64,000 bases of DNA, taken from contig CACYHB010000008.1 in the NCBI GenBank assembly GCA_902774015.1, positions 51,780 through 115,779 on the forward strand, read 5' to 3'. The notes under the pieces are model-generated. The model saw only the letters and a program-made list of their open reading frames with translations. It did not search any database and had not been told where the DNA came from. The stretch comes from Oscillospiraceae bacterium (GTDB lineage: Bacteria > Bacillota > Clostridia > Oscillospirales > Oscillospiraceae). The position numbers and the translations under genes are program-made. Positions 11,135-28,366 of the stretch are shown here, piece by piece (the stretch's first letter is position 1; the number at the start of each line of letters is the position of its first letter).

Positions 11135-11800
11135 TCAGAAGATACTCTCCATCTCCATGTCCAGAAGATCCGCCACGTAGAGACGCCCGGTCTCTACCGG
11201 TCGCCCGGCTAGGAGCCTGGTGCAGAGCGCCACCTGCATAGCGGCACAAAAAGGCGGGGTAAAGGAGAGAGAGGCCTTGCTTCGCAGACCGACGCCTTCC
11301 GGATAGATCCTGTCGATGAGATCGTCACCCGGCATCACAACGGCCGCCTGCGCGCTCCAGGCGCAGATCGCACCGTGGATCAGCGGGATGCCATCCTCCG
11401 CGCAGGCTTTTGCGAGGATACGGCGTGCCTGGATATTATCCAGTGCGTCCAGTACTGCGTCGCAGCCCCGAATCAGCTCCGCTGCGTTTTCTTCCGTCAC
11501 AAATTGGGGGATCCGGACAAAGCGGATGTCCGGATTCACCAGCGCGGCGCGTTCTGCCGCCGCCTCCGCCTTGGGCTTTCCCAGGGCGGAAGGTGAAGAG
11601 AGCAGTTGGCGGTTCAGGTTCGAGGCTTCAAAAGCATCCCCGTCGGCGGCGCGGATGGCCCCCACGCCGAGACGCAGCAGCATCTCGATGAGATAGCCCC
11701 CGAGACCGCCGCAGCCCGCCACAAACACCGTCTTTGTGCGCAGGAGGGCGCACTCGGCCTCCGTCAAAGCGCCGAGATTGCGGATATAGCGTTCGTCCAT
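11135..11800 (-). CDS. ThiF/MoeB/HesA-type adenylyltransferase
   Basis: The 221-residue E1-like enzyme has the nucleotide site VAGCGGLGGYLIEMLLRLG (residues about 27-45), the contact residues NLNRQLL and the DALDN segment. It would adenylate the C-terminal GG of a MoaD/ThiS protein so that sulfur can be loaded. It lacks the two CxxC zinc pairs of classical MoeB, as in HesA-type members. It starts 4 bases after the moaD stop, so it is clearly made to work with that MoaD-like protein, and probably also with the second one at 21313, for which no ThiF gene is seen. Confidence 0.88.
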   Translation of the reverse strand: MDERYIRNLGALTEAECALLRTKTVFVAGCGGLGGYLIEMLLRLGVGAIRAADGDAFEASNLNRQLLSSPSALGKPKAEAAAERAALVNPDIRFVRIPQFVTEENAAELIRGCDAVLDALDNIQARRILAKACAEDGIPLIHGAICAWSAQAAVVMPGDDLIDRIYPEGVGLRSKASLSFTPPFCAAMQVALCTRLLAGRPVETGRLYVADLLDMEMESIF

Positions 11801-11803
11801 GGC

Positions 11804-12025
11804 TCAGCCGCCCCCCACCGGAGGGAAGAGGGAGATCACGTCGCCGTCCTTCACGGGATCCTCCGGCTTGGAATGAAAGCCGTTGATGAGCAGGATGGCG
11901 ACCTCCTCTTTGGGGATTTCAAAGCGGCGGAGCAGGTCGGCGGCGGTGGAGGCCTCCGCCGCGGGGACCTGGGTGATCTTGCCCCGGCCCTCGCGCAGCG
12001 TGGCGAAAAAGCGTACTTCGATCAT
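11804..12025 (-). CDS. MoaD/ThiS-family sulfur carrier 1
   Basis: The 73-residue protein has the beta-grasp pattern (MIEVRFFATLREGRG, then LLINGF, then VKDGDVISLFPPVGGG) and ends in the double glycine needed for adenylation and thiocarboxylate formation. GAGGATG precedes the ATG. It sits between AOR1 and its ThiF-like partner, a standard tungsten AOR arrangement, and would carry sulfur for the pyranopterin dithiolene or a related step. Confidence 0.9.
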   Translation of the reverse strand: MIEVRFFATLREGRGKITQVPAAEASTAADLLRRFEIPKEEVAILLINGFHSKPEDPVKDGDVISLFPPVGGG

Positions 12026-12062
12026 GGGATCACATCCTCAGGAAAAGATTGAAAAATAGATC

Positions 12063-12089
12063 GAGGGGGAGGCGGAAAGCCTCCCCCTC
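12063..12089 (-). terminator. Attenuator hairpin between AOR1 and moaD
   Basis: A GC-rich stem with 11-base arms GAGGGGGAGGC/GCCTCCCCCTC and a 5-base loop is followed on the minus strand by GATCTATTTTTC. It would let only part of the AOR1 transcripts continue into the cofactor genes, giving much enzyme mRNA and little accessory mRNA. Confidence 0.7.
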
Positions 12090-12102
12090 AGGGTTATTTT
12101 AC

Positions 12103-13920
12103 TTATTTGCCGACGCACTCGTCAAGACCCAGCTTCTTAAGGGTCTCGTCCGTCGGGAAGGCGTTGACCCAGCCGCGGGCCGCGTAGTACTCAGGTAGCG
12201 TCAGCGGCAGCTGAGAGACCATGCCCTTGGAGGGGCCGTTGGTGATGGGCTCGGTGAGCAGACGCTTGGGCAGGCGGTCATCCTCGGGCTTCATGCCGGC
12301 GGCCTTGTTGAACATACGCTCGATGTTGTAGATGCGGTCACCGATCTCCAGAAGCTGTTCCACAGTCCAGGTGGTGCCGGTGGCGGCGTTGAGCAGATCC
12401 GCGTATTCCTGGGCGCCCAGGGCAAAGGAGGTGAACAGGCAGTTGCCCATGGAGTCGATGACGGCGGTCAGATCCTGGAAGGTCTTGGTCCAGGCGGCCT
12501 TGTCGGTGGTGACGGTGCGGTCCAGCTGCTGCGGCAGACCGAGGACCTCGGGGGAGATCATGTAACCGCGCACGTGAGCGGCGCCGCAGTTGGCGGTAGC
12601 GTAGTTGATGCCGATGCCCTGGATGGCGCGGGCGTCGTAGGCGGGGATCTCCTGCTTCTTGACGCTCATGGAGAACTCGGGGTGACCGTAGTGCTCGCAG
12701 AGGCGGGCGGAGCCGGAGGACATGAGCCAGTCAAGCTCGGTCTTGGGGTCGCCCATGCGCTTGGTCCACTCGACCAGCGCTTCCTTGCTGCCCCACTCCA
12801 GAGGCACGCCGGCGCAGTCCTCTTCCTTGATGAAGCCGCGCTGATATAGCTCCATGGCGGCGGCGATGGTGCAGGGAACGCCGATGGCGTCCAGGCCATA
12901 TTCGTTGCAGAGGCGGTTGCACTCGTCGATGGTGTACAGATCATCATTGCCGCAGTCGCTGCCGTAGGCCCACAGGGGTTCGTACTCGGGACCGCCGACG
13001 ACCTTGTCGCCATGGTTGATCACGCGGCCGCAGGCGATGGGGCAGTGATAGCAGGCGCCGGGCTTCTTCAGATATTTCTCAGCCAGCGTCTCGCCGGAGA
13101 ACTGGTCGGCGGTGGGGCAGTAGCTCTCCTGCCAGTTCCTGGTGGGCAGGGCGCCGATGCCGTTGATGATGTTGACCAGAACGGCCGTGCCGAGAGCACG
13201 CAGACCCTGGCCGGTGACGCCGTTGTCGGCGATGATCTTCAGCGCGCGCTTGTTGGCTTCCTTCAGAGCTTCCACGTCAGCAATGACGTCCAGCTGCTTG
13301 CGGGTGGCCTTGACAACGATGGCCTTGAGCTTCTTGCTGCCCATGACGGCGCCGACGCCGGAACGGCCGGCGGCGCGGTCCTTGTCGTTCATGACGGCGG
13401 CCAGCAACACCTGCTTTTCACCGGCGGGGCCGATGTTCAGGACGGAGCAGTCAGCGCCGTGCTTTTCCTTCAGCTTGTCGTCCAGCTCTTCGCTGAGAAC
13501 GCCGCAATACTCTCTCGCGTCCAGAATCTCGATCTTGTCGTCCGCGATGTTCAGGTAGCACCAGTCGGGAGCCTGGCCTTCCACGATCAGCGCGTCCCAG
13601 CCGGCGAACTTCAGCTTGGCTCCCCAGATGCCGCCGGAGTTGGCGCAGGCGATCATGCCGGTCAGCGGGGACTTGGTCACGACCATGTAGCGGCCGGAGG
13701 ACGGGGAATTGGAGCCGGTCATGGGGCCGGTGATGTAGACGAGCTTGTTTTCCGGGGACAGGGGATCGACCGTGGCTACACCCTCATCATAGAGGATCTT
13801 GGTGCCGAGACCGCGGCCGCCGATGAATTTCTTCGCCACTTCCAGATCCAGAGGCTCGACCTTGATCTCGCCGGTGGTCAGGTTGATGCGGGCTATTTTT
13901 TCGTAGTAAGCGTCGCTCAT
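12103..13920 (-). CDS. aor: Tungsten-containing aldehyde ferredoxin oxidoreductase (AOR) 1
   Basis: This 605-residue enzyme is a full-length AOR, which interconverts aldehydes and carboxylic acids using a tungsten bis-pyranopterin and one 4Fe-4S cluster. The N-terminal cofactor domain shows FIGGRGLGTKILYD and GPMTGSNSPSSGRYMV. The cluster ligands are C290, C293 and C297 (CYHCPIAC) and a fourth, C494 in SMGNC, spaced as in the Pyrococcus enzyme. AGRSGVGAVMGSKKLKAI is another family block. GAGGAGG precedes the ATG. It heads the operon AOR1-moaD-thiF-radical SAM-ldh2, read from a promoter beside a shared regulatory motif. The natural substrate cannot be inferred. Confidence 0.93.
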   Translation of the reverse strand: MSDAYYEKIARINLTTGEIKVEPLDLEVAKKFIGGRGLGTKILYDEGVATVDPLSPENKLVYITGPMTGSNSPSSGRYMVVTKSPLTGMIACANSGGIWGAKLKFAGWDALIVEGQAPDWCYLNIADDKIEILDAREYCGVLSEELDDKLKEKHGADCSVLNIGPAGEKQVLLAAVMNDKDRAAGRSGVGAVMGSKKLKAIVVKATRKQLDVIADVEALKEANKRALKIIADNGVTGQGLRALGTAVLVNIINGIGALPTRNWQESYCPTADQFSGETLAEKYLKKPGACYHCPIACGRVINHGDKVVGGPEYEPLWAYGSDCGNDDLYTIDECNRLCNEYGLDAIGVPCTIAAAMELYQRGFIKEEDCAGVPLEWGSKEALVEWTKRMGDPKTELDWLMSSGSARLCEHYGHPEFSMSVKKQEIPAYDARAIQGIGINYATANCGAAHVRGYMISPEVLGLPQQLDRTVTTDKAAWTKTFQDLTAVIDSMGNCLFTSFALGAQEYADLLNAATGTTWTVEQLLEIGDRIYNIERMFNKAAGMKPEDDRLPKRLLTEPITNGPSKGMVSQLPLTLPEYYAARGWVNAFPTDETLKKLGLDECVGK

Positions 13921-15154: not shown

Positions 15155-16366
15155 ATGCTTGAGGTGAAGACGCCGGAGGAGGTCCTCCGGCTAATTGAGA
15201 AGGAATTCAAGCCGTTGGGGCAAACGGAGTCCGTCCCCCTTTCTGCTGCGATGGGCCGGGTGCTGTCCGAGCCGATCACGGCGCAGGAATATGTCCCGGA
15301 CTTCGACCGCTCCACTGTGGACGGCTACGCCTGCCGGGCAGCGGATACCTTTGGCTGTTCCGACGCGATCCCGGCGATCCTGAACCTGGCCGGGGAGGTG
15401 CTGATGGGACAGGGGGCAGACTTCGCGCTTTCCCGCGACAGCTGCGTCTATGTGCCCACCGGCGGCGCGATCCCCAAGGGCGCCGACTGTGCGGTGATGC
15501 TCGAATACACCGAAGACTACGGAGACGGCACCGTCGGCATCATGAAGCCCGGCGCGCCGGGGATGAATCTGATCTTCCGGGGGGACGACGTGTTCCCCGG
15601 CAAGGAGATCCTCCCCGCCGGACGGGTGCTGACGGCCCAGGATATCGGCGCGCTGGCCGCCATCGGAAGAATAAGCGTGCCCGTGGCACGCCGGGTGAAG
15701 GTGGGCGTGATCTCCACCGGGGACGAGCTGGTGCCGCCCAACAAGACGCCGGGACCCGGCCAGGTGCGGGATGTGAATTCCCCGCTGCTCACCGCCATGC
15801 TGGAAGCATTCGGCGCGGAGGCGGTGAGTTACGGCATCGTGGTGGACGACGAGGCGCTTCTGCGCCGGAAAATGCAGGACGCAGCGCGGGACTGCGACGC
15901 CGTGATCCTCTCCGGCGGCAGCAGCGTGGGCGTCAAGGACGCGGCCTGCCGCATCATCGAGAGTATGGGCGAGCTGCTGCTCCACGGCATCGCCATCAAG
16001 CCGGGCAAGCCCACCATTCTGGGAAAAACGGGCAACAAGCCCCTGATCGGCCTCCCCGGCCATCCGGTGGCGGCCTGCTTTGTGGCGCAGCTCTTCGTCC
16101 TGCCGCTGCTGGGGCGGCTCATGGGTCGGAAACGGGAGGAATATACGGTCACGGCGGAGCTCACAGAGAGCCTCGGTGCCAACCACGGCAGGGAGCAGAT
16201 CAACGCCTGCCACCTGCGGCGGGAAGGCGGAAAACTGATGGCCGCGCCCATCCGGTCCAAGTCCGGGCTAATCACGCAGCTTGCCGGAGCAGACGGCTAT
16301 TTCATCATTTCGCGCGACTGCGAGGGGCTCCCCAAGGGCGCGCAGGTGCATGTGTATTTATATTGA
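15155..16366 (+). CDS. moeA: Molybdopterin molybdotransferase MoeA (tungsten/molybdenum insertion)
   Basis: The 403-residue protein is a normal-length MoeA, which inserts the metal into adenylylated molybdopterin. Domain marks include the lid segment DFDRSTVDGYACRA, the PTGGAIPKGADCAVMLEYTE stretch, GVISTGDELVPP, the MPT-binding SGGSSVG(V) motif and IKPGKPTILG with GLPGHPVAA at the end of the catalytic domain. The C-terminal beta-barrel domain (LTESLGANHGREQ to the end) is present. It starts 2 bases after the regulator stop. No moaA, moaC or moaE is visible in the window, so those steps must be encoded elsewhere. Confidence 0.93.
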   Translation: MLEVKTPEEVLRLIEKEFKPLGQTESVPLSAAMGRVLSEPITAQEYVPDFDRSTVDGYACRAADTFGCSDAIPAILNLAGEVLMGQGADFALSRDSCVYVPTGGAIPKGADCAVMLEYTEDYGDGTVGIMKPGAPGMNLIFRGDDVFPGKEILPAGRVLTAQDIGALAAIGRISVPVARRVKVGVISTGDELVPPNKTPGPGQVRDVNSPLLTAMLEAFGAEAVSYGIVVDDEALLRRKMQDAARDCDAVILSGGSSVGVKDAACRIIESMGELLLHGIAIKPGKPTILGKTGNKPLIGLPGHPVAACFVAQLFVLPLLGRLMGRKREEYTVTAELTESLGANHGREQINACHLRREGGKLMAAPIRSKSGLITQLAGADGYFIISRDCEGLPKGAQVHVYLY

Positions 16367-16375
16367 AAAGGAACC

Positions 16376-16416
16376 CCTACCGGCCCTTCGGGCCACCTCC
16401 CCCGAAGTGGGAGGCA
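16376..16416. repeat. Double-palindrome interspersed repeat
   Basis: Two adjacent hairpins, GGCCC-TTC-GGGCC (16382-16394) and CCTCCC/GGGAGG (16396-16414), lie between moeA and the moeA-PBP gene. Units of this look are common as scattered short repeats in gut Clostridia genomes. Only one copy is seen here. Confidence 0.55.
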
Positions 16417-16434
16417 GAGAGGAAGGAGATTGTA

Positions 16435-18345
16435 ATGGGCTTTGAGTATTTGACTAACGTACCGCTGGAACAGGCGAAGAAGGAATACCTTCTGACGCTG
16501 CAGGACAAGGGTTTCGGCACGCAGTTTGAAACCGTCTCCGTGCAGGAGTCATACGGGCGCATCACGTCCCGCGCGGTCTACGCTAGGATCAACGCGCCGC
16601 ATTACGCGGCCAGCGCCATGGACGGCGTGGCTCTGCGCGCAAGGGACAGCTTCGGCGCCACCGAGACGACGCCCGTCACCCTGCGGGAGGATCAATTTGT
16701 CGTGGTGGACACCGGCGATGCGATCCCGGAGGGCTGCGACGCGGTCATCATGGTGGAGGACATCGTCAAAAACGACGACGGCAGCATCACGATCCACGCG
16801 GCTGCCGCGCCCTGGCAGCATATCCGCCAGATCGGCGAGGATATCTGCGCTGGGGAGATGATCCTGCCCAGCTTCATGGAGATCACCCCCGCCGCCATCG
16901 GCGCCATGATCGCGGGCGGCGTGCTGGAGGTTGAGGTCATTCGCCGCCCGGTGGTGGGCATCATCCCCACCGGCGACGAGATCATCCCGCCCTGCGCCGA
17001 TCCCAAACCGGGCGACATTCTGGAATTCAATTCCTCCATCTTTTCCGCCATGCTGAAGGACTGGGGCGCGGAGCCCAAAACCTATCCCATCGTGCCGGAT
17101 CGCTTTGACGCCATTCGGGATATGGTCGCGAAAGCGGCTGACGAGTGCGACATGGTGATCCTCAACGCCGGCTCCTCCGCCGGGCGGGACGACTATTCCA
17201 CCGCCGCCGTGCGGGAGATCGGCGAGGTGCTTTATCACGGCGTTGCCATCAAGCCCGGCAAGCCCGCGATCCTGGGCTTTCGCGGAGCCAAGCCCATTCT
17301 GGGCGTCCCGGGCTATCCGGTGTCCGGCATCATCGTGATCGAGGAATTCCTGCAGCCGCTGATCGACGCATGGTACGGCAGGGAGAACGACAAGGGCAGC
17401 CGTACACGGGCAAAGCTCACGCGGCAGGTGGTCTCTGGGCTCAAGTACCAGGAATTTGTGCGGCTGCGCATGGGCTATGTTGGAAATACCCTGATGGCCT
17501 CCCCCCTGCCTAGGGGCAGCGGCGTGGTCTCCTCCTTCATGAAAGCGGACGGCATGCTGGAGGTGCCGCAGGGCACCGAGGGATATGCGTCGGGCGAAGA
17601 AGTACGTGTTCGGCTGCTCAAGGACAAGGGACAATTGAAGAATACGCTGGTCGTCATCGGCAGCCATGATCCGCTGCTGGATGAGTTGACGGATCTGATT
17701 CACCGGGAGGATCACGGCATCTTTCTTTCCTCCGCTCACGTAGGATCCATGGGAGGCATCATGGCGATCCGACGGGGTGAGGCGCACGCGGCTGGCATCC
17801 ATCTGCTGGACACGGAGACGGGAGAATATAACCGCAAGTATATCCGAAAGTATTTCCCTCACGGCGGCGTGTATCTGGTGCGCTGCGTGGGGCGTCAGCA
17901 GGGATTGATGCTGCAGAAGGGGAATCCCCTCGGGATCAAGCGCTTTGCAGACATTTCCAAGGAGGGCGTGCGATATGTGAACCGGCAGAAGGGCTCCGGC
18001 ACCCGCATTCTGACGGACTACCTGTGCCAGAAGGAGGGCGTCGATCCCGATCGGGTCTATGGCTATGAGCGCGAGGAAGTGACCCATAACGCCGTGGCCG
18101 TGCAGATCGCTGGCGGCAGCGCGGACGCGGGCATGGGCATTTATTCCGCGGCCAGACTCTATGATCTGGACTTTCTGCCCATCTGCGTGGAGGAATACGA
18201 TCTGCTGATTCCGGAGAGCGTCTGGAACACGGGCCTTGTCAAACAGTTGATCCGCACGCTCAAGAGCAGTGCCTTCCGGGAACGCATCGAGGCTATGGGC
18301 GGCTACACACTGGACCGGCCCGGTGAGATCATCGACGTGTTCTGA
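16435..18345 (+). CDS. MoeA-like domain fused to a PBP-like domain
   Basis: This 636-residue protein joins a MoeA-type domain (residues about 1-400; APHYAASAMDGVALRA, VVDTGDAIPEGCDAVIMVE, GIIPTGDEIIPP, NAGSSAGRDDYS and IKPGKPAILG) to a C-terminal PBP-like domain of about 220 residues (SHDPLLDELTDLIHRE, NRQKGSGTRILTDYLCQ, YEREEVTHNAVAVQIAGGSADAGMG). The second domain is the same kind as in the regulator at 14211. The fusion is known as MoeA/PBP and may bind oxyanion or cofactor to deliver it for insertion. ATG at 16435 follows AAGGAGATTGTA; the frame upstream only covers an interspersed repeat. With the first MoeA it may give separate tungsten and molybdenum insertion. Confidence 0.9.
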   Translation: MGFEYLTNVPLEQAKKEYLLTLQDKGFGTQFETVSVQESYGRITSRAVYARINAPHYAASAMDGVALRARDSFGATETTPVTLREDQFVVVDTGDAIPEGCDAVIMVEDIVKNDDGSITIHAAAAPWQHIRQIGEDICAGEMILPSFMEITPAAIGAMIAGGVLEVEVIRRPVVGIIPTGDEIIPPCADPKPGDILEFNSSIFSAMLKDWGAEPKTYPIVPDRFDAIRDMVAKAADECDMVILNAGSSAGRDDYSTAAVREIGEVLYHGVAIKPGKPAILGFRGAKPILGVPGYPVSGIIVIEEFLQPLIDAWYGRENDKGSRTRAKLTRQVVSGLKYQEFVRLRMGYVGNTLMASPLPRGSGVVSSFMKADGMLEVPQGTEGYASGEEVRVRLLKDKGQLKNTLVVIGSHDPLLDELTDLIHREDHGIFLSSAHVGSMGGIMAIRRGEAHAAGIHLLDTETGEYNRKYIRKYFPHGGVYLVRCVGRQQGLMLQKGNPLGIKRFADISKEGVRYVNRQKGSGTRILTDYLCQKEGVDPDRVYGYEREEVTHNAVAVQIAGGSADAGMGIYSAARLYDLDFLPICVEEYDLLIPESVWNTGLVKQLIRTLKSSAFRERIEAMGGYTLDRPGEIIDVF

Positions 18346-19784: not shown

Positions 19785-20667
19785 GCTTCTGATCATCGGC
19801 GCGGGGGCCGCAGGGATCTCCGCCGCCTCGGCCGCGTGGGACGCCGGCTGCCGGGATATCATACTGACCGACCGCCTGCCGTACCCGGGCGGCGTTCTCC
19901 CGCAATGCCTCCACGAGGGCTTCGGCCTGGCCGCCTATGGGAGCGAGCTGACCGGCCCTGCCTATGCGGCGAGGCTGGCGGAGCGTCTCGCGCAGACAGG
20001 CGTGCGCTTTCTGCCGGGACGGGAAGTGCTGGCCGTGACAAAAGAAAAGACCGCTGTCCTGTCCGGCAGCGGCGGGTTGGAAGAGATCCGTTTTGAGAGG
20101 CTGATCCTGGCGACGGGAAGCCGGGAGCGTACAGTCGGCTCCCTCGCCCTTGCGGGGACGCGCCCGGCCGGTGTGTTTACGGCCGGGCAGGCGCAGGAAA
20201 TGATCAATCTCCATCATTGGCAGCTGGGCGATCGCATCGTGATCCTGGGCAGCGGCGATCTGGGGATGATTCTGGCCCGGCGCTTCACCCTGGAGGGGAA
20301 GCAGGTGCTGGCTGTGCTGGAGCAGGAAGCGCATTTCGGCGGCCTGGCCAGAAATTATCACCGCTGCATCGAGGCGCATCACATCCCGATCCGCTATCGC
20401 TGCACGGTCCGGGAAATCCATGGTATGCCCCGCATCACGGGTGTGACGGTCGAGGATCTTGACAGCGGCGAACGGGAGCTTCTCTCCTGCGACACGCTCA
20501 TCACCGCCGTCGGCCTCGTCCCGGAGCGGGAGCTGATCCACGGCCTGGAGGAAGCACCCTGGCTCTCCCTTGCCGGAAACTGCAGCAGGGTGCATGATCT
20601 TGCCGACTCCGCGGCCGCGGAAGGCGCGAAGATTGGCGGGCAGGTCGGGAGACAACTTATAAAATGA
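19771..20667 (+). CDS. NAD(P)/FAD-dependent oxidoreductase, partner of the GlpA-like protein
   Basis: The real start is ATG 19771, preceded by GGAGGGCAG and followed by MERTELLIIGAGAAGISAA; the longer open frame back to 19393 is a shadow of the previous gene. The 298-residue protein has an N-terminal FAD fold, the LILATGSRERTVGS block and a second nucleotide fold VILGSGDLGMILARRFTLEG. It lacks a redox CxxC. In known two-flavin dehydrogenases (GlpAB-like or HcnBC-like) this subunit binds the second flavin. It sits just before the mop gene's own promoter, so it ends the operon that began at 14211. Confidence 0.83.
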   Translation: MERTELLIIGAGAAGISAASAAWDAGCRDIILTDRLPYPGGVLPQCLHEGFGLAAYGSELTGPAYAARLAERLAQTGVRFLPGREVLAVTKEKTAVLSGSGGLEEIRFERLILATGSRERTVGSLALAGTRPAGVFTAGQAQEMINLHHWQLGDRIVILGSGDLGMILARRFTLEGKQVLAVLEQEAHFGGLARNYHRCIEAHHIPIRYRCTVREIHGMPRITGVTVEDLDSGERELLSCDTLITAVGLVPERELIHGLEEAPWLSLAGNCSRVHDLADSAAAEGAKIGGQVGRQLIK

Positions 20668-20697
20668 TTTCATATCTTTTCGGCTTGTTTCGCACAA
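20656..20697. promoter_or_regulatory. Tungsten-regulon motif, site B
   Basis: Read on the minus strand the site is TTGTGCGAAAC, 10 bases, then GATATGAAA, the same arrangement as site A2. GAAA units stand 10 and 20 bases apart. It ends 15 bases before the -35 of the mop promoter and overlaps the end of the upstream flavoprotein gene. Confidence 0.55.
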
Positions 20698-20712
20698 TCT
20701 TTTCCGCCCCGC

Positions 20713-20741
20713 TTGCACCGTGAGAGCGCCCGCGTTAGAAT
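20713..20741 (+). promoter_or_regulatory. Promoter of mop
   Basis: TTGCAC (20713-20718) and TAGAAT (20736-20741) are 17 bases apart, about 38 bases before the mop ATG, so mop has its own transcription besides any read-through. Confidence 0.8.
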
Positions 20742-20779
20742 ACGCGCATTGAATATGCACAGAAAGGAGAAACCTGTAC

Positions 20780-20992
20780 ATGAAGCTCAGTGCAAGAAAT
20801 CAGCTCAAGGGAACCGTCATGGAGATCCAGGACGGCGCTGTCAACGGCATCGTCAAGATTGATCTCGGCAATGGCAATATCATCAGTTCGGTCATCACCA
20901 TGTCCTCGATCCGCGAACTCGGTCTCAAGGTCGGCGATACAGCCTATGCGGTCATCAAGGCCAGCAACGTGATGATCGGTGTGGACGACTGA
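20780..20992 (+). CDS. mop: Molbindin (Mop-domain molybdate/tungstate-binding protein)
   Basis: The 70-residue protein is a single Mop/TOBE domain: KLSARNQLKGTVMEIQDGAVNGIVKIDLGNGN and the closing VGDTAYAVIKASNVMIGVDD match molbindin. Such proteins form hexamers that hold several oxyanions and buffer molybdate or tungstate in the cell. AGAAAGGAG precedes the ATG. It has its own promoter next to a copy of the shared motif, so it should follow metal supply together with the AOR and tup genes. Confidence 0.93.
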   Translation: MKLSARNQLKGTVMEIQDGAVNGIVKIDLGNGNIISSVITMSSIRELGLKVGDTAYAVIKASNVMIGVDD

Positions 20993-21010
20993 TCACCAAG
21001 ACGATAGAGC

Positions 21011-21058
21011 AAAAAAACACCGCGACGGCCCGCATATTGCGGACCGCCGCGGTGTTTT
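21011..21058. terminator. Bidirectional terminator between mop and the AOR2 operon
   Basis: A long stem pairs AACACCGCG with CGCGGTGTT and continues with CGGCC-type pairs toward a GCATATTGC tip. A-runs lie before it and TTTTAT after it, so it serves both mop (plus) and the small gene at 21057 (minus), whose stop codon overlaps its edge. Confidence 0.85.
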
Positions 21059-21308
21059 ATCCGCCCAGGGTGAGAAAACGGATCATGAATTGCCGGCGGA
21101 AGCATGCGACCGCTTCCTCCTCGCCGGAGAAGGTCACAAGCGTGCGGGGAAAGGCGTAACTGCCGACCTTGCTCTCCTCCTGCATCTGGAGGCAGATCTC
21201 ACAGCCGCCGACTTGATAGCGCGTTTGGGAGATCCGCCGCGCCCCGTCAAGGCCCTGCAGGTATTCCTCGATCCGCGCCATGGACAGCGCCCAGTTTTCC
21301 TGTATCAT
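21057..21308 (-). CDS. Small unknown protein of the AOR2 operon, C-terminal GG
   Basis: This 83-residue protein is not recognised. GCAGGAGG lies eight bases before its ATG, and it follows the second moaD-like gene by 4 bases, so it is a real, co-translated gene. It has a CEIC pair (residues about 36-39), a third cysteine in the second half, and ends FLTLGG. The terminal double glycine is like that of a sulfur carrier, but the rest does not read as a clear beta-grasp fold. It may serve AOR2 maturation or the MoaD-like protein; this is inference from place only. Confidence 0.6.
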   Translation of the reverse strand: MIQENWALSMARIEEYLQGLDGARRISQTRYQVGGCEICLQMQEESKVGSYAFPRTLVTFSGEEEAVACFRRQFMIRFLTLGG

Positions 21309-21312
21309 CGCG

Positions 21313-21567
21313 TCAGCCTCCTGCCGCCGCCGTGAAAAAGTACACCACGTCCCCGTCCCGGAGCTTTGCCCGGGGGCCGGCCTGGACGCTGTTGACCGCC
21401 ACCAGACAAGCGCGGAAGTCTTTTTCCGTCACGGCAAAGTCCGGCCTTTGCCTCCGGATCTCCCGGCAGACGAGCGGGATCAGTTCACGGACGCTCCCGG
21501 CCTCCAGGTGCAGCTCCTTCACGCCGGATTCCAGACGCAGCGTTCCGAACAGCCTGACCGTCACCAT
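21313..21567 (-). CDS. MoaD/ThiS-family sulfur carrier 2
   Basis: The 84-residue protein starts MVTVRLFGTLRLESGV and ends KLRDGDVVYFFTAAAGG, the beta-grasp pattern with the carrier double glycine. Its ATG overlaps the AOR2 stop by one base (TGATG). No second ThiF-like gene is present, so it probably shares the enzyme at 11135. Having one MoaD per AOR suggests either dedicated carriers or simple operon duplication; the two are only weakly alike. Confidence 0.88.
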   Translation of the reverse strand: MVTVRLFGTLRLESGVKELHLEAGSVRELIPLVCREIRRQRPDFAVTEKDFRACLVAVNSVQAGPRAKLRDGDVVYFFTAAAGG

Positions 21568-23486
21568 CAGCGGATCCCCAGACGGCGCAGCTTCTTTTCC
21601 GAGGGCAGGCCGTTCTTTTCCCAGCCCCGTGCGCGGTAATAGGTCTTCTTCATCTGCTCCAGCGGCACTCTGGTGTTTGGCCTTTTGGGGTCCTGCGGCA
21701 TGTCAGTCAGGCGCTTGGGCAGCTTGTCGTTTTCCGCGCTGACTCCGAAGCGGGCGTTCACCGCGCGCTCCACGTTATAGCTGCGCTCACCGCAGCGGAT
21801 GAATTTACCGATGTTCATCTTCATGCCCGTGGTGTAGCTGAGCTCACAGGGATAAGGCAGCAGCGGGAGATTGAAGCAGGCGATTTCCGGCAGCTTGTTC
21901 AGCACGCGCACGGCCGGACCCAGGTACGGGATCACAGCGTTGACGGTCTTTGCCAGCGCCCCGTTGGGATTTTTCAGCAGGAAGGCGGGAAAGACGCCGT
22001 AGGAGGTAAAGAGACACTGCCCGCCCATAGAGATGGCCTCCATCAGATCCTGCATGACCATGCACAGATCCGCCTTGCCCCGGGGCGTCTGGCCGTTGAC
22101 GTTCAGACCCAGACCCTCCAGTACCACCAGATAGCCGCCGTTTAAGTGGCAGCCGCCCCGGTTGGCCACCGCGTAGCCCAGCCCCTGGCCCACGGCGCGC
22201 CGCGGCTCATAGGCGGCCAGCTCCATCCCCTTGGAGTGAATGGCAAACTCCTTGCCGCCGTACTTCTCGCTCAAGCGTTTGCTGCCCTCGGCAAGCTCAT
22301 CCCCGATGCCGCGGCGATGGGCGATATCCTCAAAGACCTGAGACAGGCCTTCCGTCTGCCCGAAAGTGAGTCCTGTTTTCCACAGACCCTTTTCGTTGGC
22401 CTCCATGGCCCAGGCCAGGGTCCCGGCCGTGGAGATGGTGTCCATCCCCAGCTCGTCCAGCTCATAATTCCAGCGACAGATCTGTTCCAGATCGGCGTTT
22501 TCAATATTGCCGCCCAGCAGGCCCAGCGTCTCCAGCTCCGGCCCCTTGACGGGTTTTCCGTCCACCGGCACGCGGCGGGAGCAGCGGATTGGGCAGGACA
22601 GACAGCCGTTGTTGGAAAGGTTCAGTTCCTCGGCTAGCGCCTCACCGCTGACTGCCTCGAAACCCTCAAACTGCCCCTTGGCATAGTTGCGGGTGGACAA
22701 CAGGCCGTGCACCTGCATGGAACTGACAAGTCCGGCCGTACCCAGCTTGGGTAGCTGCTCGCCCGTCAGCGGATGGGAGCGGATCGCCTGCACCCATTTC
22801 TTATGGTGTGCAGCCGCCTTGTCCTTGTCGTAGACGCTGGGGATCGTGTCGCCCGCGGCGGTGATGGCCTTGAGATTTTTGCTGCCGAATACCGCGCCCA
22901 TACCGGCCCGACCCGCTGCCCGCTCGCCGCTCATCACGGAGGCATAGCGCACCAGATTTTCCCCGGCCGGGCCGATGGCGACCATGCCGCAGCGCACGCT
23001 TCTGCCGTGAGCGGCATCCAACGCTTTTTGCAGGGCCTTCTGGGTTTCAGAGACCTTCATACCCCAGAGTTCGGCTGCGTCATGGAAGCGGAATTCTCCG
23101 TTTTCGATCTCCACCCATGTTGGCTTTTCGCATTTGCCCCGAATGATAAGCGCGTCCAGCCCTGCCTTTTTCAGATAGTGGCCGAAGTTTCCCCCGCAGT
23201 TGGAGGAGGAAGTGATCCCCGTCAGCGGGGAGAGGGAGGAGACGTCAAAGCGGTTTGAGGATGGCGCGCCTGTGCCGGTCAGCGGCCCCGTAGCAATCAC
23301 AATCAGGTTTTCGGGATCGAAGGCCTTCTCCTTCCCGCTCAGATTGTCATAGAGGATTTTGGAGGCCATGGCCTTGCCGCCGATATATTTCTCCCGGTCC
23401 AGGTCGGTCCAGATGTAGTTTTCGGCCTTTCGCTCACTCACATCCAGTAAAACGACCTTCCCCATGTAGCCGCAGTAGTTTGTCAT
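21567..23486 (-). CDS. aor: Tungsten-containing aldehyde ferredoxin oxidoreductase (AOR) 2
   Basis: The 639-residue AOR is clearly diverged from AOR1. It shows KYIGGKAMASKILYDNL, the GPLTGTGAPSSNRFDVSSLSP block and the cluster cysteines C295, C298 and C302 (CLSCPIRC), with a later candidate fourth cysteine in SMGGQCLFTSYG. GERAAGRAGMGAVFGSKNLKAI is the matching AOR block. ATG 23486 is chosen because GGGAG lies 8 bases upstream; a frame from 23507 lacks this. It heads AOR2-moaD2-small protein and is divergent from tupA with a shared motif between them. Two AORs suggest two acid/aldehyde substrates. Confidence 0.93.
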   Translation of the reverse strand: MTNYCGYMGKVVLLDVSERKAENYIWTDLDREKYIGGKAMASKILYDNLSGKEKAFDPENLIVIATGPLTGTGAPSSNRFDVSSLSPLTGITSSSNCGGNFGHYLKKAGLDALIIRGKCEKPTWVEIENGEFRFHDAAELWGMKVSETQKALQKALDAAHGRSVRCGMVAIGPAGENLVRYASVMSGERAAGRAGMGAVFGSKNLKAITAAGDTIPSVYDKDKAAAHHKKWVQAIRSHPLTGEQLPKLGTAGLVSSMQVHGLLSTRNYAKGQFEGFEAVSGEALAEELNLSNNGCLSCPIRCSRRVPVDGKPVKGPELETLGLLGGNIENADLEQICRWNYELDELGMDTISTAGTLAWAMEANEKGLWKTGLTFGQTEGLSQVFEDIAHRRGIGDELAEGSKRLSEKYGGKEFAIHSKGMELAAYEPRRAVGQGLGYAVANRGGCHLNGGYLVVLEGLGLNVNGQTPRGKADLCMVMQDLMEAISMGGQCLFTSYGVFPAFLLKNPNGALAKTVNAVIPYLGPAVRVLNKLPEIACFNLPLLPYPCELSYTTGMKMNIGKFIRCGERSYNVERAVNARFGVSAENDKLPKRLTDMPQDPKRPNTRVPLEQMKKTYYRARGWEKNGLPSEKKLRRLGIR

Positions 23487-23525
23487 GCAAATCACTCCCA
23501 ACCGCATTCAGATTCATCTGCTTCT

Positions 23526-23554
23526 ATCATATATCAAAAGCGTAGGATTGAAAA
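23526..23554 (-). promoter_or_regulatory. Promoter of the AOR2 operon
   Basis: On the minus strand TTTTCA (23554-23549) and TATGAT (23531-23526) are 17 bases apart, about 40 bases before the AOR2 ATG. Confidence 0.6.
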
Positions 23555-23564
23555 GCGGAAAATT

Positions 23565-23592
23565 CTATATGCAGTTTCGTGCGATTTCACAT
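23565..23592. promoter_or_regulatory. Tungsten-regulon motif, site C
   Basis: On the minus strand GTGAAAT and ACGAAAC stand 10 bases apart and run into TGCATATA. The 13-base piece GAAACTGCATATA is identical to part of site A2. The site lies between the divergent promoters of AOR2 (10 bases away) and tupA (30 bases away). Confidence 0.6.
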
Positions 23593-23621
23593 TGTTTGGT
23601 ACAAAAGCTACTGAAATTTGA

Positions 23622-23650
23622 TTGAAATGCCCGACAACAGATGCTACACT
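23622..23650 (+). promoter_or_regulatory. Promoter of tupABC
   Basis: TTGAAA (23622-23627) and TACACT (23645-23650) are 17 bases apart. The leader to the tupA ATG is about 120 bases. Confidence 0.7.
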
Positions 23651-23776
23651 ACAGACAAGTTGATACGCTTATTGGATAAGCGGTGGACGAGCCTCTTTCC
23701 TTGAGCAGAACCGGTACAGCACAGCTGTGCCTGTTTTGTTCTGGAAAGGGGATATTTTTTTAGGAGGAAAACCGAA

Positions 23777-24847
23777 ATGAAAAAGATCGTATCCCTGCTC
23801 CTGGCGATGATCATGATTTTTGCGCTGGCTGCCTGCGGGCAGAGCGCGGCTCCCGCCCCTGCGGCCACCGAGGCTCCCGCTGCCGTAGAAGAACCTGCAG
23901 CAGAGTCTGCCCCGGTCGAAGAAGCTGCGCCTGCGGAAGAGCCCGCCCCCGAGGCTGACGCGCTGGTGGTCGACACCTGCATCCTCATGGAGGCGGACGA
24001 CGCCATGATCAACAACTACAGCCTGCTGGCCGTGAATCCCGACGCTCCCTTTGTCGACGCCGACGGCAACGCGGTTGCGGACGTGGAACTCAACACCGTG
24101 GGCGCCGCGGCGCTGATCAACTGGCTGCTTTCCGAGGAAGGCCAGAACCTGGCTGCCAACTACGGATTTGAAGAGTACGGCGAATACCTGTTCTATCTCA
24201 AGGACGGCCGCCCCGTCTCCACCGCCGAGATTCCCGAGGCCACCGAGGAGACCAAGCACATCCGCCTTTCCACCACCACCTCCGTCAACGACTCCGGTCT
24301 GCTGGGCTACCTGCTGCCCATTTTCGAGGAGAAGTACGGCTACGAGGTGGAGGTCTACTCCGCCGGCACCGGCAAGTCCATCGCCAACGCCAAGATGGGC
24401 AACGCCGACCTGATCCTGGTCCACTCCAAGAAGCAGGAGGAGGCCTTCATTGCCGACGGCTTCTCTTATGTGATCGACGGCATGGAGACCGAGCGCCTGA
24501 ACTGGATGTATAACTACTTTGTCCTCTGCGGCCCGTCCGCCGACCCCGCCGGCGTCAAGGATGCCGCTGACGTCAAGGCCGCCTTCAAGGCCATTGCCGA
24601 CGGCAAGTACGCCTTCATCTCCCGCGGCGACGGCTCCGGCACCCACACCAAGGAGCTGAGCCTCTGGCCAGAGGAGCTGGGTATCACTGCCGAGGCCGAG
24701 AGCTTCAAGGACTACACCGACTGGTACGTCTCCGCCAACACCGGCATGGGCGCGTGCCTGGTCATGGCCGAGGAGATGGGCGCCTACATCCTCACCGACA
24801 AGGCCACCTTCCTCACCTTCGTCGCCAACGACGGCGTGATGGGTTGA
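23777..24847 (+). CDS. tupA: Tungstate ABC transporter binding lipoprotein TupA, circularly permuted
   Basis: A lipoprotein signal with lipobox LAAC (C20) is followed by an Ala/Pro/Glu-rich linker to about residue 62. Residues about 65-140 match the usual C-terminal part of TupA (MEADDAMINNYSLLAVNP, then INWLLSEEGQNLAANYG and YLF). Residues about 162-356 then match its usual N-terminal start onward: STTTSVNDSGLLGYLLP, VGxG-like SAGTGK, LILVHS, SRGDGSGTH, NTGMGA and LTDKATFL. The chain stops where the normal protein would go on into the segment found here at the front. The order is therefore a circular permutation. Binding residues TTTS and SRGD are kept, so tungstate binding is expected. It is first in tupABC. 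Confidence 0.9.
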   Translation: MKKIVSLLLAMIMIFALAACGQSAAPAPAATEAPAAVEEPAAESAPVEEAAPAEEPAPEADALVVDTCILMEADDAMINNYSLLAVNPDAPFVDADGNAVADVELNTVGAAALINWLLSEEGQNLAANYGFEEYGEYLFYLKDGRPVSTAEIPEATEETKHIRLSTTTSVNDSGLLGYLLPIFEEKYGYEVEVYSAGTGKSIANAKMGNADLILVHSKKQEEAFIADGFSYVIDGMETERLNWMYNYFVLCGPSADPAGVKDAADVKAAFKAIADGKYAFISRGDGSGTHTKELSLWPEELGITAEAESFKDYTDWYVSANTGMGACLVMAEEMGAYILTDKATFLTFVANDGVMG

Positions 24848-24872
24848 TTCCCCGCGCTTTATGAAGTAAAAT

Positions 24873-24904
24873 AATAGCCGTGGAGTTTTCTCCACGGCTA
24901 TTTT
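24873..24904 (+). terminator. Partial terminator between tupA and tupB
   Basis: Thirteen-base perfect arms AATAGCCGTGGAG/CTCCACGGCTATT around TTTT are followed by only a short TTA. It lies in the tupA-tupB gap and would leave much more mRNA for the binding protein than for the membrane parts, a usual pattern in ABC importers. Confidence 0.75.
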
Positions 24905-24920
24905 AGAAGGATTGTGTTTT

Positions 24921-25607
24921 ATGGGCTCTTCTATCCGAAAAGCAATCGAGTTGATTCTCTCGGCCGATCCGGAGCTTTTGAATATCCTCTCGACCACGGC
25001 GAAGGTGTGTCTGACCAGTTCGATCCTCGCCCTTGTCCTCGGCGTGCCCATCGGGATCCTGTTGGGGGCGGAGCGCTTCCCCGGGCGCAAGGTGCTGCTG
25101 GTGCTCAACCGCACGCTGATTGGCATGCCTCCGGTGGTCTGCGGCCTGCTGTTTTATATGCTCTTCTCCGGTGTCGGGCCCTTCCGGCATCTTCACTGGC
25201 TCTTCACGGTAAAGCTCATGATCCTGGCCCAGGTCGTGCTCATCACGCCGATCATCGTCGGCGTGATGGAGACCTTTGTGGCCGACACCGCGCCCGCCCT
25301 GCGTGAAACCACCCGGGGCCTGGGCTTCGGCCGATTGAAGGAATACCGGCTTCTCATGAACGAGTGCCTGTACTCCATCTTCTCGGCCTATCTGCTCTCC
25401 TTCGCCCGCGCCATCGCGGAGGTGGGCGCCGTGGCCATGGTGGGCGGCGCCATTGCCTGGAAGACAAATGTGATGACCACCGCTATCATGATGTATACCA
25501 ACCGCGGCAGCTTCACCCTGGGCATCGCCCTGGGGCTCATCCTGCTGACGCTGTCACTGCTGGTGAATATCGTGCTCAGCGTGATGCAGGGGAGGCTCAG
25601 CCGATGA
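24921..25607 (+). CDS. tupB: Tungstate ABC transporter permease TupB
   Basis: The 228-residue membrane protein has about five to six membrane segments and the permease loop (EAA-type) region RETTRGLGFGRLKEYRLLMNECLYSI, which contacts the ATPase. The N-terminal LSTTAKVCLTSSILALVLGVPIGILLG and the late FARAIAEVGAVAMVGGAI are typical of TupB/ModB-like permeases. ATG 24921 follows AGAAGGA; an upstream TTG at 24912 is less likely. It overlaps tupC by 4 bases (ATGA). Confidence 0.9.
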   Translation: MGSSIRKAIELILSADPELLNILSTTAKVCLTSSILALVLGVPIGILLGAERFPGRKVLLVLNRTLIGMPPVVCGLLFYMLFSGVGPFRHLHWLFTVKLMILAQVVLITPIIVGVMETFVADTAPALRETTRGLGFGRLKEYRLLMNECLYSIFSAYLLSFARAIAEVGAVAMVGGAIAWKTNVMTTAIMMYTNRGSFTLGIALGLILLTLSLLVNIVLSVMQGRLSR

Positions 25608-26257
25608 AGACGACGGCCTTTACCAAAACCTACAACAAGCGGGTCGTGTTGAACCTTCCAGAGCTGGAACTCCCCAAAGGGCAGATCACTGCGGTCATCG
25701 GTCCAAACGGCAGCGGCAAATCCACTTTTGCGAAGATCCTCGCAGGGATCGAGCGCGCGGACGACAGGCGCCCGGTCCTGTCCGGCGTCTCTGTGGGCTA
25801 TCTGCCGCAGAAGAGCTTCCCCTTCCGCATGAGCACGGAGAAGAACATTCTGCAAAACGGAAACGACCCCGCCCGCGCTTCGGCGCTGATGAAAGCCTTG
25901 GGCATCGAGGCTCTCGCCGGGCAGAGCGCGAAAAAGCTCTCCGGCGGCGAGACGGCCCGCATGGCGCTCTGCCGCATCCTGATGCGGCGCTACGCGCTGT
26001 TGATCCTGGACGAACCGACCGCGGCCATGGATATGGAATCCACCCTTGCCGCGGAGGAATGTATCCGCAGGTATTGCGATGAAACCGGCTGCGGCGTGCT
26101 GCTCATCACCCACAGCATCTCCCAGGCCAGGCGCCTGGCCGATCAAATCATCGTTTTGCATGAGGGTAAGCTCATCGAGCAAGGGGATACGGAGCGCGTT
26201 CTCGCCTCCCCCCGGGAAGAGCAGACCCGGCGCTTTCTGGAGTTTTTCGGCGTATAA
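25604..26257 (+). CDS. tupC: Tungstate ABC transporter ATP-binding protein TupC
   Basis: The 217-residue ATPase has Walker A GPNGSGKST (residues about 33-41), the Q-loop in GYLPQKSFPF, the signature LSGGETARMALCRIL, Walker B LLILDEPTAAMD and the switch histidine in LLITHSISQA. It is short and has no TOBE domain at its end, as usual for TupC and unlike ModC. The ATG lies inside the tupB stop, and the longer open frame back to 25364 is a shadow of tupB. GGGGAGGCTCAGCC precedes the start. Confidence 0.92.
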   Translation: MKTTAFTKTYNKRVVLNLPELELPKGQITAVIGPNGSGKSTFAKILAGIERADDRRPVLSGVSVGYLPQKSFPFRMSTEKNILQNGNDPARASALMKALGIEALAGQSAKKLSGGETARMALCRILMRRYALLILDEPTAAMDMESTLAAEECIRRYCDETGCGVLLITHSISQARRLADQIIVLHEGKLIEQGDTERVLASPREEQTRRFLEFFGV

Positions 26258-26286
26258 ACGAAAAAATGGACGGAGGAGAAATACAC

Positions 26287-27498
26287 ATGGCATTTGTCAA
26301 AAACATCTATTACCGCAGCTTCCAGGCGGTCTTCAACGTGGGTGCCCGGTGCCTGTACTGGCGTCGGCCGATCCCGTTTTCCGGTGTCGGCAGTGTGCAG
26401 AAGATCCCGGAGCTGCTGAAAAAAGAGAAGGTTCAAAAGGTCATGGTGGTCACCGGCCCCACGGTGGGAAAGAAGCTGGCCCCGAAGATCCTGACGGAAC
26501 TGGACAAGGCCGGCATCGCCTACACCCTCTTTGCGGAGGTGGAGGCCAACCCCTCCGTGAACACGGTCAACCGGATCCAGAAGCTCTATCTGGACACCGG
26601 CTGCCAAGGCTTCATCGCCATCGGCGGCGGTTCGCCCATGGACGCGGCCAAGGCCGCGGCCGCCCGGGTGGTGCGGCCGAAGACTGAAGTGGGCAAGATG
26701 GCAGGCCTGCTGCGCGTCGGGAAGAAGATCCCGCCCTATATCGCCGTACCCACCACGGCCGGCACCGGCTCGGAAACCACCATCGCCGCCGTCATCACCG
26801 ATACCGGGACCCATCACAAATACGCGCTGATGGATCTGCACCTGGTGCCGAAGTACGCGATCCTGGACCCGGAAATGACCCGCGAGCTGCCGCCAAAGAT
26901 CACCGCCACCACCGGCATGGACGCGCTCACCCACGCGGTGGAGGCCTACGTCTGCTGGACCTACAACACCGCCGAGAGCATCCGTCTGGCGGAGGAGGCC
27001 GTGTGCGAGATCTTTCAATATCTGGAGCGGGCCTACAACGACGGAAATGATATGGAGGCACGCACCCAGATGCTGATCGCCTCCTTCAAGGCGGGCTTTG
27101 CCTTCACCCGCGCGGGCGTCGGCAACGTCCACGCCATCGCCCACACCCTGGGCGGCCTGTACAACACGCCTCATGGTCTGGCAAACGCGGTGATCCTTCC
27201 CATTGTCCTGGAGGATTACGGCGGGGCGGTGGAAGAAAAGCTTGCCCATCTGGCGGAGCTGACCGGCGTGAAGTTCACCGGCTCCGACGCGGAGAAGGCC
27301 CGCGCCTTTATCGGCGAGATCCGCGCCATGAACAAGCGCATGAACATTCCGACGGGCTTTGATTTCATCAAGGAAGAGGATATCCCCCAGATGATCACCT
27401 GGGCGCTGGCGGAGGCCAACCCCGTATACCCGGTGCCGGTGGTCTACGACCGCAAGCGCTGTGAAAAGGTCATACGCCGCATTATCGCCGAGGCGTAA
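26287..27498 (+). CDS. Iron-containing alcohol dehydrogenase
   Basis: The 403-residue protein belongs to the group III (Fe-ADH) dehydrogenases. NAD(P)-binding is seen in IAIGGGSPMDAAKAAA and PTTAGTGSETT. The metal ligands lie in TGMDALTHAVEAYV (Asp and His) and NVHAIAHTLGGLYNTPHGLANA (two His). GGAGGAG precedes the ATG at 26287. It follows tupC by about 30 bases, so it may be read with the transporter. Set beside two AORs, it offers a route acid to aldehyde (AOR) to alcohol (ADH) or the reverse; this link is inferred from context. Its N-terminal about 35 residues are longer than in many members. Confidence 0.9.
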   Translation: MAFVKNIYYRSFQAVFNVGARCLYWRRPIPFSGVGSVQKIPELLKKEKVQKVMVVTGPTVGKKLAPKILTELDKAGIAYTLFAEVEANPSVNTVNRIQKLYLDTGCQGFIAIGGGSPMDAAKAAAARVVRPKTEVGKMAGLLRVGKKIPPYIAVPTTAGTGSETTIAAVITDTGTHHKYALMDLHLVPKYAILDPEMTRELPPKITATTGMDALTHAVEAYVCWTYNTAESIRLAEEAVCEIFQYLERAYNDGNDMEARTQMLIASFKAGFAFTRAGVGNVHAIAHTLGGLYNTPHGLANAVILPIVLEDYGGAVEEKLAHLAELTGVKFTGSDAEKARAFIGEIRAMNKRMNIPTGFDFIKEEDIPQMITWALAEANPVYPVPVVYDRKRCEKVIRRIIAEA

Positions 27499-27524
27499 AA
27501 GCAAACTTCCTGCATTTTTGCTTG

Positions 27525-27557
27525 AAAAGGGCTCTGTGTGGATCCCACACAGAGCCC
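27525..27557 (-). terminator. Strong hairpin ending the tnpV operon
   Basis: A near-perfect palindrome GGGCTCTGTGTGG/CCACACAGAGCCC is followed on the minus strand by CTTTTC. It lies between the alcohol dehydrogenase and the minus-strand tnpV pair and can serve both. The rest of the 194-base gap shows no gene. Confidence 0.65.
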
Positions 27558-27692
27558 GCTCGTATTCAGGACAACAAGATCGCAGCCCTGACTGAATACC
27601 ACGCAATAGCTGTAGGAGGCCATCGCTGAATGGCTTTTCGCGGTATCCGATTGGAGTGATGTTAAGCACACTCCCGATCTGGCTGCGGAGAA

Positions 27693-27974
27693 TCAGATTT
27701 CTCTCATCTGTCCATCTGTCAGTACGTCGATCATGATCTTTGCAGCTAATCGGAATGAGTAGATAAATGTCTCGCAATCGGTCAACACATTGACCTCCCG
27801 CTGGGCAGTCATGTAGTCCTCGAACATTTCCTTCTGCTTTTCGGTGAGCGTGTCTGTCAGAGCATCTCCAGCTTTCACAAGGTCATCCAGAGCTTTTGCG
27901 TATTGGCTGTTACGTTTGAAGCTACGCTCGCTGGGACGAACATCTCCCAGGTAAAGGTCTTCCAGAATTAGCAT
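27693..27974 (-). CDS. Small hypothetical protein of Clostridia mobile elements (DUF6809-like)
   Basis: This is a 93-residue, mostly helical acidic protein (KALDDLVKAGDALTDTLTEKQKEMFEDYMTAQREVN). Proteins of this type are often encoded right after tnpV in Clostridia transposons and prophage remnants; the DUF number is from memory and should be treated as tentative. It follows tnpV by 12 bases. No catalytic motif is seen. Confidence 0.6.
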   Translation of the reverse strand: MLILEDLYLGDVRPSERSFKRNSQYAKALDDLVKAGDALTDTLTEKQKEMFEDYMTAQREVNVLTDCETFIYSFRLAAKIMIDVLTDGQMREI

Positions 27975-27986
27975 CTCAGCACCCCC

Positions 27987-28337
27987 TCAGCAGTAGACGA
28001 GCTCACTCAGTACGATTTCTTCCGCCCGGTTCCTGATGCTGTTCATGTGTCGCACCCATTCCATTTGATCAGAGGCTTTGAGCGCCTCGGTCACGCCTTC
28101 TTGCTTTGCCATCTGCCGGGTGAGAAGTTCCATGCGTTCCTCGCAGGCTTCGTCGATCTCGGCCAGGTGCTGAAACAGCTTTCCCTTCAGCAGCATATTG
28201 GAATATAGAACTGGCCGATGCTCCTTCAGGTAGCGTTTCCGCATCCGGCCATACTTGCCGATGGGCTGCTGTTCTTCTTCGGGTAGAACGAGGTTGGGGA
28301 TGAGATAATCCCCGGATTTATGGTATTGGATGGTCAT
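27987..28337 (-). CDS. tnpV: TnpV-like transposon protein
   Basis: The 116-residue protein reads as TnpV: an N-terminal segment YHKSGDYLIPNLVLPEEEQQPIGKYGRMRKRYLKEHRPVLYSNMLLKGKL, then helices with many charged residues and the usual late MEWVRHMNSIRNRAEEIVLSELVY. AAGGAGAAAAA precedes the ATG. TnpV genes travel with Clostridia transposons; its molecular task is not known. It and the next gene are the only trace of the element to the left of the tRNA attachment site. Confidence 0.8.
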   Translation of the reverse strand: MTIQYHKSGDYLIPNLVLPEEEQQPIGKYGRMRKRYLKEHRPVLYSNMLLKGKLFQHLAEIDEACEERMELLTRQMAKQEGVTEALKASDQMEWVRHMNSIRNRAEEIVLSELVYC

Positions 28338-28366
28338 TTTTCTTCTCCTTTTTCATTGAAATATTG

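Follow-up and report, generated by a model that had tools for sequence, protein, structure and literature searches.

A TupA-derived, probably tungstate-binding lipoprotein with circularly permuted segment order in Oscillospiraceae

The window, as we call the whole stretch of 64,000 nucleotides of Oscillospiraceae DNA analysed here, carries at 23777-24847 a gene for a lipoprotein of the tungstate-binding TupA kind in which the order of the segments is swapped: the C-terminal part precedes the N-terminal and central part. We consider it very likely that this protein is a TupABC importer's TupA that underwent circular permutation in nature, still two-lobed and tungstate-binding and feeding TupB and TupC for tungsten enzymes. 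The gene is a single open frame of 356 amino acids on the forward strand, preceded by AGGAGG ahead of the ATG; as the sequence-only reading had stated, the frame is unbroken, with a good lipoprotein signal and an Ala/Pro/Glu linker. Its parts are the following.

23777..24847, + strand: tupA, circularly permuted tungstate-binding lipoprotein of 356 aa (from the sequence, profile and PDB-chain matches and rotation)
23777..23836, + strand: lipoprotein signal peptide with lipobox LAAC, Cys20 (read from the sequence)
23837..23959, + strand: Ala/Pro/Glu linker from the lipid anchor to the domain, residues 21-61 (read from the sequence)
23960..24199, + strand: front segment, residues 62-141, homologous to the TupA C-terminal part (PDB-chain matches, rotation and trees; limits approximate)
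24200..24250, + strand: joining linker, residues 142-158, from the old C-terminus to the old N-terminus, with PEATEET (alignment)
24251..24820, + strand: core segment, residues 159-348, homologous to the TupA N-terminal and central part (Pfam, NCBIfam and PDB-chain matches, and the parts of PMC5517513 used here)
24821..24844, + strand: new C-terminal tail, residues 349-356, at which a canonical TupA would run on into its C-terminal part

The front segment holds the last strand of lobe B and the C-terminal half of lobe A. The core segment takes in the Pfam match to PBP_like_2 (PF12849, residues 162-348), the best match to the NCBIfam TupA model (residues 159-351) and the ligand residues T166-T168, S169, H216, R283, T289 and D341. 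The Ala/Pro/Glu linker varies in length among relatives, some of which have none.

In phmmer comparisons with the PDB chains 3lr1, 3muq, 5my5 and 3kn3, which are TupA or close relatives, residues 159/161 to 348/351 match the N-terminal and central part, and the match to the C-terminal part spans residues 65-128 at most. Because this second match is weak when taken alone (3-6 bits), we relied on the scoring of rotated sequences and on separate trees. Upon rotation of the window protein the two TupA matches merge into one continuous match per chain (3muq 4-230, 3kn3 6-239, 3lr1 5-208, 5my5 28-238). The gap-free alignment that had been predicted for the rotated form was not obtained, since relative to the PDB chains it has insertions around 92-104, 227-235 and 300-317. 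The matches in 3lr1 and 5my5 end about 25 residues past the join.

A canonical TupA HMM, built from 66 canonical loci and applied to rotations in steps of three residues, gives the mature window protein as found 235.1 bits over profile positions 4-184 of 255, and its best rotation 284.2 bits over positions 4-253. The six best rotations (282.6-284.2 bits) begin at residues 141-156, which is where the sequence-only reading had put the join. All 109 permuted ORFs submitted to this test gained by rotation (+34.9 to +53.5 bits) and none of the 66 canonical controls gained from the permuted order. These 109 ORFs amount to 98 distinct sequences, because some loci overlap, and were taken from 114, leaving out two cut at contig ends, two broken ones and one single-lobe ORF. 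No second copy of either the C-terminal or the N-terminal and central part was seen in the window protein, and no second front segment in 107 permuted ORFs examined; the earlier claims of a TupA end placed before the normal start, and of no duplicate of either, are thus borne out by PDB-chain matches, rotation scoring and this search. The NCBIfam TupA model NF041772 scores 136.3 bits on the protein as found and 146.3 bits on the rotated form, below its curated equivalog cut-off of 400, which the canonical sister L039 (195.8 bits) does not reach either. Therefore, we name the protein a permuted, TupA-derived protein instead of an NF041772 equivalog: it is homologous to TupA over the full domain and departs from the canonical chain order, in which lobe B stands between the first and the second half of lobe A.

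According to the parts of PMC5517513 on which we drew, TupA of Desulfovibrio alaskensis G20 (DaG20) consists of lobe A (residues 2-76 and 201-251), lobe B (91-200) and a central strand (77-89), with Thr9-11, Ser12, His59, Arg118, Thr124 and Asp170 as site residues. When we mapped the cut point by combining the phmmer alignment with these published lobe limits, it fell at about DaG20 residues 180-189, in a loop of lobe B, with the new ends 12-21 residues ahead of the return crossing of the chain to lobe A. As the cut lies inside lobe B, the last lobe B strand now opens the domain and two crossings remain. Of the earlier placement of the new ends at a loop in the hinge or lobe, the loop stands and the hinge does not. 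In the arrangement we propose, the linker of about 17 residues would connect the former C- and N-termini, which both lie in lobe A, and the new ends would have been opened in the lobe B loop that separates the last core helix from the last lobe B strand. The resulting protein would fold as a two-lobed type II binding protein and close on tungstate with the usual residues. The main physical change would be that the lipid anchor pulls on lobe B and not on lobe A, which becomes one continuous stretch.

The TTTS motif and the residues equivalent to His59, Arg118, Thr124 and Asp170 (DaG20 numbering) are all present in the window protein. Across a 51-row alignment (the window protein and 50 hand-picked of 63 non-redundant permuted references, with no canonical sequence), six ligand positions are invariant in 51 of 51 rows; the third threonine is kept in 50, with one serine, and the aspartate in 50, with one gap. 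The published site residues are thus conserved among permuted proteins, in keeping with the claim that ligand residues were retained. An AlphaFold2 model computed from a permuted-only alignment is confident (pLDDT 92.9, pTM 0.86), and its best Foldseek matches are 3lr1, 3muq, 5my5 and 3kn3, with 190-207 columns aligned and TM values, taken by target, of 0.63 for 3lr1, 0.61 for 5my5 and 0.39 for 3muq. Since Foldseek aligns sequentially, this structural check, with TupA crystal structures on top, backs the core and gives the front segment no test.

The lipobox cysteine is absent, as judged by eye, from 15 of 103 distinct permuted N-termini, and the second copy of the window's genome is of this kind, so the idea of a moved anchor misses part of the clade. 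An automatic count gave 63 with a lipobox, 38 without and two unusable, and missed LCAC-type boxes. The proteins without this cysteine are L064, L063, L062, L065, L070, L073 and nine others; that second copy is L058 8927-10015. In them, the signal peptide leads almost directly into the domain, an unusual arrangement for a binding protein in a cell of Gram-positive type.

The permuted gene lies next to genes for a transporter and among genes for tungsten cofactor enzymes.

24873..24902, + strand: 13-bp perfect inverted repeat between tupA and tupB (z-score -3.82 for 24845-24925)
24921..25607, + strand: tupB, ABC transporter permease of the TupB/ModB kind (NF038017 ABC_perm1 above cut-off)
25604..26257, + strand: tupC, ABC transporter ATPase (PF00005)
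21567..23507, - strand: divergent aldehyde:ferredoxin oxidoreductase (AFOR), tungstoenzyme family (PF01314/PF02730)
21313..21567, - strand: ThiS/MoaD-like small protein (PF02597)
15155..18345, + strand: two MoeA-type genes (molybdenum/tungsten cofactor insertion), the second fused to a PBP_like domain (Pfam)
11135..13920, - strand: second aldehyde:ferredoxin oxidoreductase and a ThiF-like gene

The TupB model gives the window's tupB 142.5 bits, under its cut-off of 320, and among the best 25 of 195 NCBIfam models none reaches its cut-off on tupC. The hairpin between tupA and tupB is terminator- or attenuator-like and may, as an attenuator, set a higher level of tupA. Also in the neighbourhood are a radical SAM/SPASM protein and a helix-turn-helix protein that carries a PBP_like domain. 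The MoeA-PBP_like fusion (16438-18342) and the helix-turn-helix protein with PBP_like (14211-15149) are candidates for intracellular oxyanion binding. A search of 16000-28500 against Rfam at E 0.5 gave no match, and we therefore claim no known riboswitch.

Of the permuted loci with room for it, 64 of 66 have tupB downstream at a distance of no more than 800 bases, and 56 of 57 have tupC within 2000 bases; a close or distant AFOR homologue is present in 26 of 68 loci. L125 and L130 are permuted TupAs without adjacent tupB, and the other copies of the same isolates (L108, L114) have tupB adjoining. Judged from these genes, tungstate import appears to be the best-supported role of permuted TupA: tungstate would be handed to TupB and TupC and reach tungsten-cofactor enzymes such as the neighbouring aldehyde:ferredoxin oxidoreductases, of which the divergent one probably uses the imported tungsten. 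The binding and transport of tungstate are inferred, as are the closing of the lobes and what the shift of the anchor does. It is unlikely that the TupA fold was kept while the ligand changed to molybdate or another oxyanion, or that the protein serves as a sensor and not in transport. Such a change would fit the NCBIfam equivalog score below cut-off, the genome with one copy with and one without a lipobox, and the two of 66 loci that lack an adjacent tupB; against it, the tungstate residues described in the sections of PMC5517513 used here are kept, the transporter genes adjoin, with few exceptions, wherever there is room for them, and AFOR homologues recur as counted above.

The history of both pieces was followed in trees of 59 permuted and 63 canonical sequences, retained after length and redundancy filters, with FastTree local support values. 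In the joint tree the permuted proteins form one clade (support 0.9, stem 0.44) within the canonical TupAs. Separate trees of the core (178 columns) and the front (73 columns), rooted on L177, again each show one permuted clade (0.969 core, 0.898 front), beside the same five canonical sisters (L039, L135, L040, L171 and L172), and the node that joins these with the permuted clade has a support of 0.999 in the core tree and 0.998 in the front tree. L039 and L135 also lead the canonical BLAST ranking for both pieces, L172 and L183 tying with L135 for the front. The agreement of the core and front trees argues that the permuted state is derived and that both pieces come from the same lineage, so that the permuted TupAs probably share one origin. 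Front tree and rotation also agree that the front segment is a homologue of the TupA C-terminus, as had been proposed.

Improbable on these grounds is a chimera in which the front of another paralogue's or species' TupA, with a history of its own, was fused ahead of a truncated TupA: both trees and the BLAST ranking place the two pieces beside the same canonical proteins. In its favour, such an origin is discussed as possible for Tp0684 in the part of PMC4990184 available to us, and we found no intermediate or tandem-fused gene. For the circular permutation, we suppose that a tandem duplication of tupA would have been followed by in-frame fusion and loss of both outer parts. Short repeats inside the window's tupA left no footprint of a rearrangement. 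A neighbouring TupA-like pair in one genome (G909) was considered as a tandem duplication and rejected; the second copy (L149 2234-3331), which adjoins the canonical tupA, carries its TupA-like domain behind a regulator-like N-terminal stretch that we take to be ModE-like.

The same order, which was to be sought in related Clostridia, is widespread there. In a sample of 400 genomes of the family, 59 match, namely 41 with a full-length permuted protein, 11 canonical, six single-lobe and one degenerate permuted (G041); classes were counted from the match table, with the order checked on extracted loci or else taken from colinear coverage of the permuted query. One permuted tupA sits in a single-contig genome of 4.3 Mb (G078). 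Samples of the order (394 genomes) and the class (391) added five permuted genomes, two from family f17 and three from other families. Of 398 genomes sampled from the phylum 186 match and, among the matches listed, the permuted form is confined to the window's own genome. A scan of named contigs gave 73 loci, all permuted and two with a broken gene, mostly from MAG records of many studies; they are labelled mostly Oscillospiraceae, Ruminococcaceae, Lachnospiraceae or Clostridiales, and many come from rumen and gut. The permuted tupA of L110 (644-1621) and L128 (2840-3891) is spread over two ORFs with the core separate, which we read as frame breaks. Among plasmids 116 records match, none over more than 80% of the query, and ten listed begin at query positions 101-111, outside the front segment. 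BLAST left 11 of 192 core-match ORFs unclassed: three fragments, L049, L052 and six others, which the canonical profile matches in canonical order, two of them incompletely. L049 3665-4765 is a full-length, degenerate permuted TupA-like protein of about 26% identity, without TTTS/SRGD and with no tup genes in its locus.

Ratios of dN/dS lie at 0.07-0.40 in seven of eight pairs, one pair being not computable, and by this measure permuted tupA is under purifying selection. That the gene is an assembly artefact or a decayed, functionless gene is hardly credible, even with most named records being MAGs and the core lying in a separate second ORF in two of 73 loci, given the 41 of 400 genomes, one of them a single contig, the same order in records of many studies, the dN/dS values well below 1 and the retained ligand residues. 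The reading as a circular permutation is thus supported by rotation scoring, separate trees, many genomes, a confident model and conserved ligand residues.

Two permuted copies are present in the window's genome, each with tupB and tupC; their mature parts share 90% identity. The genome also has three AFOR genes. No further PF12849 match was found in it at E 0.001, and no match to ModA or WtpA. The genome is 94% complete and 5.9% contaminated, so this absence of ModA and WtpA is not a proof. With no match in nine other genomes of its genus in the family sample, the gene may have been horizontally gained or the contig misbinned, which leaves the permutation finding unaffected.

Short relatives of a single lobe are encoded in six of the 400 genomes of the family, five from genus g84 and one from g72, in open frames of 204-260 aa, one of them within a 489-aa frame.

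L050 3681-4313: single-lobe relative
L051 3847-4530: single-lobe relative
L052 3724-4371: single-lobe relative
L053 3705-4307: single-lobe relative
L055 3970-4626: single-lobe relative
L056 3802-4485: single-lobe relative

These proteins have kept the join, with most of the front segment before it and the first half of lobe A after it. They give one unbroken match across the join to the permuted profile (E 1e-14 to 8e-19) and end about where lobe B would begin, as seen in the five of them that were aligned with the window. From the linker, ATEET can be plainly read in L050 and L051, is looser in three and absent in L053. All six lack the TTTS motif, and their loci (4.3-8.5 kb) showed no homologue of a tup gene, an AFOR or MoeA. 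Searching the 400 genomes with a profile of the six gave no further one among the matches listed, the lower of which are permuted TupAs or matches to signal and linker. Tentatively, and with doubt somewhat outweighing confidence, we propose that the permutation, by making lobe A continuous, let a single-lobe lipoprotein bud off, these half-binding-proteins having taken up a new function.

With the TupA of D. alaskensis G20 (5my5) and of Geobacter sulfurreducens (3lr1), the window protein shares a homologous domain, the kept TTTS/H/R/T/D residues and a gene beside tupB and tupC; it differs from them in having the C-terminal part first, its ends in a lobe B loop and a linker joining the old ends. 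Canonical TupAs from the same family (L039 in genome G331) and the same order (L135 in G618) are about 58% identical to it in the core and about 51% in the C-terminal part and have tupB and tupC nearby as in permuted loci; their chain order is normal, unlike that of the window protein. Natural permutation of a binding protein is already known: as described in the part of PMC4990184 available to us, Tp0684 (MglB-2) of Treponema pallidum, of 'Type Ic/Cluster Bc', is a naturally permuted type I sugar-binding lipoprotein. Like the window TupA, it is a binding lipoprotein of an ABC transporter that underwent circular permutation in nature, and it has relatives among gut Gram-positives. According to the same source, it belongs to another, type I sugar-binding family with another cut point, and its rearrangement runs in the opposite direction, the first N-lobe strands having moved to the C-terminal end. 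The window protein has no MglB-type match among the matches listed; in Pfam and the PDB it matches PBP_like_2, related SBP families and TupA. For TupA itself the permutation seems to be new: our literature search, which covered freely available journal papers, found no permuted TupA, and the portions of PMC5517513 and PMC11980592 seen hold no word beginning with 'permut'. The earlier statement that no circular permutation in TupA had been described is thus not contradicted, with that of another binding protein published in PMC4990184, as far as its accessible part goes.

Descriptions of natural circular permutation in transporter binding proteins are rare, one having been found in the literature searched. 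As the rearrangement was seemingly single, was kept by selection and still goes with its transporter, it offers a natural experiment in how a two-lobed binding protein tolerates new ends. From the single-lobe relatives it would seem that permutation can release a lobe to be used anew. Since the NCBIfam TupA model stays under its cut-off here, counts of tungsten use among Clostridia of rumen and gut may be too low. The carriers are Oscillospiraceae of rumen and gut, in which the last quarter of a relative of the tungstate-capture protein now stands at the front of the chain.
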